Below are positions 46,661 to 60,967 of a stretch of 64,000 nucleotides of DNA, piece by piece; the stretch's first letter is position 1; each line of letters begins with the position of its first letter. Both the position numbers and the translations under genes were made by a program. Under the pieces are notes generated by a model that searched no databases, was not told where the DNA came from, and was given only the letters and a program-made list of their open reading frames with translations. Source of the stretch: Amia ocellicauda (taxonomy: Eukaryota > Chordata > Actinopteri > Amiiformes > Amiidae); NCBI RefSeq assembly GCF_036373705.1, contig NC_089863.1, forward strand, positions 25,641,727-25,705,726. The letters run 5' to 3'.

Positions 46661-49600
46661 TCAGATCAGCCGACACGTGGCACTGCGCAGCGGCAGGGTG
46701 CCAGGCAGCCGGCGATGTCGGTGGCGGTGATTCCTCTCCCTGGCGCACGGGGGGGCGCCTGTGTTCTCCAAGCCCCCTATCGCGGGCGCCCCGCTCTCCT
46801 GCGTGTTGCCAGACCCCGGCTCCCCCTTCCCGCCCTTGTTGTTCTTGGTCTTTTTGTCTCCGTCCTTCTCCGGAGCCTCGGTGGCGGGGGGTGCGGGGGC
46901 CTCGCCCGTGCCCTCCAGTGGTGGCAGGGGGTCCGGGGACAGCTGGACGGAGGGCTTTCCCTCTGCCTGCTCCTCGCTGGGGATGTTGAGGTTGGAGGTG
47001 GAGCGCTTCGCGTTGCTGGAGACCGAGCTGCCGATGGAATGGGAAAAAAAAAGGCCCAGTGAGCGACCAGTCGGTGGAGCGGCTGCTGCACGTCTCTGAA
47101 GATGGGGATGAACATTAATACAGTTAACAGTGGTTCCCCTCTCACCTCTGCTCGCTGCCATCCTCCGAGTCCCTCTGCTCGCTGCTGTACCTCAGCTCTG
47201 CGGGCGTCTTGAACGACAGGTCCTTCTTTCCCTTCAGCCAGTAGGTCTTCATGTATCCTTTCCCCTGTGGAAGGACAGTAATGTACTTATTACATATACA
47301 GGTGAGCTCCACTAATTATGTACTCTAAGAGACCTTGGATGGGGCTACGATTTTGTCACAGAGATAATTGGGATTACCTTCCTGCCTTTTAAAATGTTTC
47401 TTAATTAGCCTCCCACGAAAGCTAATAATTGTGATGCGATTGTATTGACCGACGTGGCTGCAGGTCACGTTGTATCAAGGTAACTCCACAACACCGGAAA
47501 CCTTTTTCCTAATAATTATGCTGTTAAATTAATGAATCAGTCACAGTGCAACACATGTTCTACAACAATACAATGTAGCCAACCTCAAAACGCTTCAACG
47601 TCCCTTGCTCATACTAGCTTTGGGGCAAACTGAACTTCACTACAATAGCTTGAACGCGAGTCTTATTAAGAAACAACGTCGGTTGTAAAAGGCAGGTCGG
47701 TAAACACAATTATCTCTGTGACAAAATCATAGCCCTACTTATAATGTACTCTAAGGGACCGTGGATATCAATACATTATAAATGAAGGACGTTCCAATCA
47801 TTTGTAGCCGAATAATGAAAATGCTGCTTAACTGGCAAGCAAAAGGAGTTTATCATCGCCTACATGCCGTTATTTTCACCAAATCCAAACCGTATTAGTT
47901 TAATCCCATCAACAACAGAATAAAGGTAGACAGGTATAAATAAGATTATATAGACTATATCATATATTTGTATTATATTATAATCTGCAAACTGCACATT
48001 TATTTATTATTAATGCTGATTAGTTTCTGTAGCCAACATCCGACGCCTAGAGAAATTGACCTTTAAAATTGCACAAGGAATTTATTCACATTGTGCAGCC
48101 CCTCTAACAAACTAAAAAAAAATGGTCTTGGACAGAATAATCATTTTTTTTCTTCTGACATTTAGCTTTTGAGATTTCCTTCGGTATTCTAGTCTCGGAT
48201 ATACGTTTCATCCGGAAACAAATCGGTCTGGAATATGAGAACTATACGTTTTAAGAGGAATATATCGCAATTCTAAAAAGACAAGGGGCTTCACATCATT
48301 TTACGGCCTTTAAGATACGCTTCAGAATCGCAAATCGTGATGGCGGCACCGCTGTTTGTTTCACCTCTAACCTGGCCCATACAGAGCTAAATCGAACGAC
48401 CCCTTGCTTTTTGGCCCCGAGGTGCTTCCCCTGAAGAGCGCTATACAAGACCCAACATTTGTGTTGTATATCGGGTACTGGGTGGAAGTTGGCACCTTAT
48501 TTATGTGTCCTTTCAATGAAAGGAATGAAGGCTTTGACAGCGACACGCTTTTTCCCCCAGGGGAAAGGCCAGCGTTTGGCACTGCACATTTCAGGGTCAG
48601 TGCTGCAATTGGGCTGAAACCCTTGGCTCGTAAGTCACCCGTTACACTAATCCGTGGGTTCGCCCTCTGTTTCGGGCACATCTGGGGCCCAGAACACTCT
48701 ACTGTGCCACACATTTCCCCTCATGTACGGGCTCGCTACCCACATGCTAACATGTTGACGCTGGCTGTGCGATTCAGAGATTAGAGGGCTATTAAAAAAC
48801 AAAAAAGATATCACCAAAAAACAACAATCTGTAATTTGGCATCATTCCCAGAATGCATCTGTGCCATAAAAACAATTTTGTGTGTCTCATGTGAAAACGC
48901 AACGGCGTCTGTTTCTGCGGCTTCCTGGTCCTCCGTTGTCCTGTGCATTACCTTGACGAAGATCTTGCCTCTCTCCTCGATGATGTACGGCTCGTGTTCA
49001 AGGTGGTCCTTGGTGGTCTGGCTGATGTGGATTTGCATTCCCTACACACACAGACACAAACATACAGCACAGCACAAAACACAAAGTTGCTTCAAGGCTA
49101 GAGGCCAGCCCTACAACGTTTCCATTAACCAGGATCAGAGCTGATATTTTGACTTGGAAAATGGCGTCTGCTAAACAACTAAAGTGATGTCATTCGCTGT
49201 ATTATGTAAATGGGCATTTCTTTATGACTTGTGTAGGTGTGTATTAGGCTTTAAAAAATGACCTAAGTCGCACTGGATAGGAGCATTCGATGAGCCACTT
49301 TTGTAGGTTGTGGGCTTATCTGTATTCTAATATGAGAATATGGAAGAAGACACTTTTTGAGATACTGTGTGAACGGTGATCAGTTTCACAGAAATATTGA
49401 TTCTTGATGTATCAGAACGCTAAAAGGACAGGCAAAGTAACAAAATCCAAGCTTAATAACAAAATATATTGTGTGGATTATACAGTAATTGTAGCAAACC
49501 ACTGAACCCATGTACATCTGTATGTACTTATTGGCAGTCCACAGGAGGGATTTTCTTTTCTTTCCATTCTGTTATGCAATCAATCCATTGTTATTGTAAA

Positions 49601-60967: not shown

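Follow-up and report, generated by a model that had tools for sequence, protein, structure and literature searches.

The window, by which we mean the whole stretch of 64,000 nucleotides from Amia ocellicauda that was analysed, carries a soluble guanylate cyclase (sGC) gene on its minus strand. The window also holds, upstream of it, a tropomodulin gene (4143-16591, plus strand), a LysM-domain gene (25497-28352, plus strand) and a gene of the TNFAIP8 family (33574-34536, minus strand), a block that we take to correspond to human 1q21.3 with TMOD4, LYSMD1 and TNFAIP8L2. Contigs are referred to below as C with a number, the window lying on C20. The TNFAIP8 gene of the window is matched in two pieces, as if it contained an intron; the copies on C28, C8 and C4 are single-frame. 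Crude coding-potential scans to the right of the window, and beside a cyclase gene on C11 described below, revealed no further gene.

The cyclase gene runs from its start at 60967 to a stop codon ending at 46661. Joined by open frame and splice sites it is intact, with 16 exons, no internal stops, GT-AG borders at all 15 introns and a product of 817 residues. A sequence-only reading of the same DNA had arrived at these coordinates and this exon count, and had made the protein one residue too short (816). When the C11 protein was used as query in a spliced alignment, 11 of the 16 exons were recovered exactly at both ends. The score was 1788, while the opposite strand gave 97 and shuffled DNA 117. 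For exons 6, 7, 8 and 15 just one of the two ends was found, and exon 16 was missed. With human beta1 as query, 8 of the 16 exons were found. The least certain exons are those of the linker (6 and 7) and the tail (16), which encode charged or low-complexity stretches and whose basis is the open frame and the splice sites. Later donors for exon 4, leading to products of 828 and 826 residues, were rejected because 59235 is the donor picked with C11 as well as with human beta1 as query; a beta2 query from C6 picks 59231 instead.

The first exon (60840..60967, Met1 to codon 43; all exons are on the minus strand) was recovered at both ends. Exons 2 (60445..60577) and 3 (59641..59815), both in the gene model and the spliced alignment, encode H-NOX sequence, and exon 3 holds the codon for the heme ligand His104 (59765..59767), which aligns with the histidine of LDALH in human beta1, the YRSTR motif (residues 133-137) and the codon for Phe143 (59648..59650). 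After exon 4 (59235..59326), HNOBA begins in exon 5 (58098..58355), with Phe211 at the position of beta1 Cys214. It continues in exon 6 (57565..57715, start alone recovered), which enters an acidic, Lys-rich linker, and, past the linker of exon 7 (57151..57279, end alone recovered), in exons 8 (54219..54339, end alone recovered) and 9 (53843..53972). Exon 10 (53408..53554) would encode the coiled coil, judging by its position. The cyclase domain occupies exons 11 (52843..52989), with the first metal Asp499 (52957-52959), 12 (52450..52606), with Glu539, Arg542 (52592..52594) and Asp543, 13 (51431..51540), with Cys609, Asn616 and Arg620, and 14 (48952..49041, its C-terminal part), and ends in exon 15 (47146..47264, start recovered). 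Exons 5, 9 and 10 to 14 appear in both the gene model and the spliced alignment. Exon 16 (46661..47027), defined by open frame and splice site, encodes a low-complexity C-terminal extension and the stop. The linker spans 57151-57715, and the tail (46661-47027) is rich in Ser, Pro and Lys; a C-terminal extension is also described for some atypical cyclases in the accessible part of one paper (PMC2576301).

Pfam places HNOB at residues 2-163 (2.1e-51), HNOBA at 204-477 (3.5e-71) and Guanylate_cyc at 488-668 (4.1e-67), so that all three domains sit in one chain, as had been claimed. The claim that His104 and the Y-x-S-x-R motif are kept agrees with our model down to the numbering, and the two metal Asp residues, the Glu and the Cys said to occur together do so at numbers one higher than those given. 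Over its full length the chain has its best solved relatives in sGC beta1 of human and of Manduca; the heme domain alone scores 115 bits against the bacterial Nostoc H-NOX and 87-94 bits against beta1.

What other cyclases does this fish possess? A census of the whole genome (988 Mb, 385 contigs) by HNOB, HNOBA and protein searches, the last with 65 of 104 candidates scored and 67 matches, found alpha1 and beta1 on C18, with model starts 35 kb apart, alpha2 on C3, and one sGC-type gene each on C6, C7 and C11; the alpha models and the C7 N-terminus are incomplete. The beta1 protein is 90% identical to human beta1. The C6 (13812151-13821562) and C7 (34364212-34374510) proteins are 72% identical to each other, and their identities to an approximate rat beta2 sequence are 75% and 69%; because of this identity we take them to be two copies of GUCY1B2. 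Human GUCY1B2, we presume, is a pseudogene on chromosome 13. The C11 gene (18295584-18302839) is a second cyclase of the window type, its protein being 56% identical to that of C20.

The identity of the C20 protein to the beta1 and beta2 proteins is 35-38% and to the alphas 32-34% (37-38% for GUCY1B2; 32-35% for GUCY1B1 and GUCY1A1, which share the general sGC architecture and fall in separate clades). In a tree of 11 rows and 561 of 797 columns, C20 and C11 are joined at 100/100 and the beta2 pair is their sister at 95/93. Of its 15 introns the C20 gene has nine in common with C11, two with beta1 and two with each beta2; beta1 and beta2a have five in common, of which the C20 gene has one. AU tests reject placing C20 with the beta2 pair without C11 (p-AU 7.5e-05) or with beta2a alone (p-AU 2.6e-05). 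Joining C20 and C11 with the beta1 rows loses at p-AU 0.04, as does a clade of beta1 and beta2 without the C20/C11 pair, so which beta lineage is nearest to the pair is only marginally settled. With a length of 1.97, the path from C20 to beta2a is roughly threefold that between Manduca and human beta1 (about 0.65, summed), and by this rough clock the split of C20 from beta2 therefore looks older than that of insects from vertebrates.

The C20 gene is thus neither GUCY1B1 nor GUCY1B2, both of which are elsewhere in the genome. Identity with GUCY1B1 is rejected by the separate clade, the beta1 gene on C18 and the two shared introns of 15; in addition, the C20 protein differs from GUCY1B1 in carrying both metal Asp. 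A fish orthologue of GUCY1B2 might be suspected given that beta2 is the nearest other lineage in the tree and that one paper, in the part available, counts rat beta2 among the atypical cyclases together with Gyc-88E (PMC2576301). We find this scarcely credible, and regard it as refuted by the two separate beta2 genes, the identities, the introns and the AU tests. Moreover, hand translation of zebrafish gucy1b2 primers gives WMESLN and NQLKEG, which look like the beta2 genes (WMDCL and NQLKEG in C7) and not like C20. The sequence-only reading, which had proposed an atypical Gyc-88E-type cyclase outside GUCY1B1 and GUCY1B2 and had named a tree position inside either as refuting it, is supported here, since the C20 protein falls in neither clade. 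C11 as the partner of C20 from the teleost duplication is unsupported: the sister block of C20 is on C4, and tropomodulin and TNFAIP8 searches gave no match on C11.

How firmly can the C20 gene be tied to the Gyc-88E type? At the positions of beta1 Cys78 and Cys214 there are Ile and Phe in C20, Val and Phe in C11, and Cys in beta1 and both beta2 proteins. We take these positions to be those of the cysteines of NO sensitivity. In an atypical subunit of Manduca, too, two cysteines that matter for NO sensitivity are missing, according to the part of that report available (PMC1435932). An approximate N-terminal sequence of fly Gyc-88E groups with C20 and C11 at 100/100 on a branch of 1.51 with 49% of columns filled; it is 28% and 34% identical to C20 and C11 and 22-25% identical to beta1 and beta2. 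The cysteine comparison is the firmer of the two, and the grouping of the approximate fly sequence is a lead. With Drosophila Gyc-88E (with Gyc-89Da/Db) and Manduca MsGC-beta3 the C20 protein has in common the sGC domain order and a catalytic set in one chain; it differs from them by Arg542 before the second Asp and by its vertebrate host. The sequence tie to insect Gyc-88E consists of the approximate fly N-terminus, these features and the name of a pikeperch gene, LOC116049087, 'soluble guanylate cyclase 88E-like', which in the part of a brain study available to us showed high transcription and was up-regulated in the piscivores of 2023 (PMC12673963). That gene, in another fish, bears the same class of name and is compared by name alone, its orthology being assumed. 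From these sequence comparisons the C20 gene appears to encode a vertebrate member of the atypical (Gyc-88E/MsGC-beta3 type) soluble guanylate cyclases; the type is supported and the insect tie is a lead. Two pattern searches of bacterial and archaeal contigs gave 87 matches each, none confirmed, and two of viral contigs gave 4 and 44 matches with no confirmed relative; they are silent on other fish.

The same cysteines bear on whether C20 could be regulated by NO and serve, in practice, as an additional beta subunit for alpha1 or alpha2. Alpha subunits are present in the genome, and the heme His and Y-x-S-x-R are kept in C20. Nevertheless, with both NO-sensitivity cysteines missing, and with weak NO binding described for insect atypical relatives in the part of the report seen (PMC1435932), such a role seems very unlikely to us.

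The catalytic residues of C20 (Asp499, Asp543, Glu539, Cys609, Asn616 and Arg620) are all in one chain, as in Gyc-88E. The sequence-only reading had pointed to such a set; the set is there, yet it does not discriminate, since both GUCY1B2 copies of this fish have it too. What sets C20 apart from GUCY1B2 is rather that the latter are separate genes that keep Cys78 and Cys214 and share two of 15 introns with it. One residue of the C20 site is peculiar: before the second metal Asp stands Arg542 (CGA), and Gly is found there at all 15 of the other cyclase loci matching the motif and in five PDB sequences among the matches listed. The motif search covered 38 loci (L009-L046, many of them flanks only) and gave 16 matches, namely the 15 with Gly and a chance match on C7 (Ile) that was dropped; of 17 loci with cyclase hits, L037 and L039 matched the second motif alone, and L032, L033 and L043-L046 matched neither. 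As Arg542 amounts to a single base, CGA for GGA, seen in one assembly, it may reflect a sequencing or assembly error or an allele. The C11 chain has the normal Gly but reads MPRYGLYGDTVHTASAMES, so that it has lost the Cys that binds the purine as well as the Asn and Arg of the transition state. At this motif 14 of 16 matches have C/N/R; the two exceptions are C11 with G/H/A and alpha1 with C/T/K. Hence the residues altered in one paralogue are normal in the other, and vice versa.

At the distal heme position, that of beta1 Ile145, there is Phe143 in C20 and Tyr in C11; the approximate fly Gyc-88E sequence also has Tyr, in which C20 differs from it. We equate this position with Tyr140 of the O2-binding Tt H-NOX, which MAFFT placed one column aside through a one-residue gap. 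The VETIRDAYM segment with Arg542 and Phe143 were both absent from the sequence-only reading.

These residues speak to the suggestion that C20 is a homodimeric, Gyc-88E-like cyclase sensing O2 by itself. That one chain holds the two metal Asp along with Glu, Cys, Asn and Arg favours it, and MsGC-3 and Gyc-88E form active homodimers, as stated in the part of the report seen (PMC1435932). Arg542 in place of the Gly of the other loci argues against homodimer activity and the distal Phe against an O2 sensor, so that we consider this reading rather unlikely; should Arg542 be an error or an allele, it would regain ground. The sequence-only reading is thus partly supported overall: its catalytic residues are in place, while the homodimer capability it drew from them is weakened by Arg542, and O2 sensing through a distal tyrosine is weakened for the C20 chain by Phe143, the Tyr being found in the paralogue.

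Perhaps C20 is instead an intact but catalytically weakened subunit, relaxed at Arg542 and Phe143, which now has a regulatory or dominant role beside a partner or is nearing loss. Besides Arg542 itself, the C11 copy without three catalytic residues would fit this, as would the situation on C4, where tropomodulin and TNFAIP8 are near each other again. That block looks as expected after the teleost genome duplication, and duplicated genes of this kind would suggest a teleost; no cyclase match was found on C4 in the HNOB, HNOBA and protein searches (the last with 67 matches from 65 of 104 candidates scored). On the other hand, the frame of 817 codons in 16 canonical exons is intact. Differences between C20 and C11 at codon positions 1, 2 and 3 (0.30, 0.24 and 0.55 over 640 codons) speak for long purifying selection, and the pikeperch gene of the same name is highly transcribed in the part of the brain study available. 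We judge this alternative unlikely.

The explanation that we think best as a whole, and to which we would give an even chance, is that the C20 and C11 proteins form an obligate heterodimer with one canonical site, probably regulated by O2. From C11 would come the metal side, with both Asp and the usual Gly, together with a heme domain whose distal Tyr suits O2, and from C20 the side with Cys, Asn and Arg. Like alpha1/beta1, the pair would then have a single fully canonical active site, the alpha/beta split of GUCY1A1 and GUCY1B1 being the model for it. A diatomic gas would bind the heme and move the heme domain, and the signal would be relayed via HNOBA/PAS and the coiled coil to the cyclase, which would make cGMP; falling O2 may thereby raise cGMP in sensory or central neurons. 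Regulation by O2 is proposed by analogy with Drosophila, in which Gyc-88E with Gyc-89Da or Gyc-89Db forms heterodimers acting as O2 sensors, as given in the part of one paper available (PMC9075734). A broader version, that fish kept two ancient Gyc-88E-type genes with the active site split between them, C11 having the metal side and the O2-type pocket and C20 the base-binding and transition-state side, as an obligate O2-sensing heterodimer independent of alpha1/beta1, we offer tentatively and think improbable. The changes in C11 could also be decay instead of division of labour.

Gyc-88E-type cyclases sense O2 in flies and worms, and to our knowledge humans have no gene of the C20 type. The C20 gene may be a retained vertebrate branch of the O2-sensing cyclases and a direct new candidate for vertebrate oxygen sensing. 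If the heterodimer is true, vertebrates would have in it a receptor that senses oxygen directly and whose evolution was independent of the NO receptor alpha1/beta1. The complementarity of C20 and C11 makes a sharp biochemical test possible. The Gyc-88E type is not new in fish, and it is little studied. Its literature, judged by title, is nearly all on insects and worms, the pikeperch being the sole fish case naming gyc88e among the matches listed; the matches listed for the gene names held no functional study of a vertebrate member, a search of the gill chemoreceptor literature gave no match, and a search for phylogenies found none, by title, on the C20/C11 branch. In zebrafish, gucy1b2 expression is seen in olfactory neurons that lie scattered, according to the part of that paper available (PMC4480006), which makes the beta2 story separate from that of the C20 gene.

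The window also contains three related repeat copies (9142-10009, 50540-51363 and 54420-54973). Intron 13 of the cyclase gene harbours the second and intron 7 the third, in opposite orientation, and the open frames of the repeats resemble a Tc1-type transposase.
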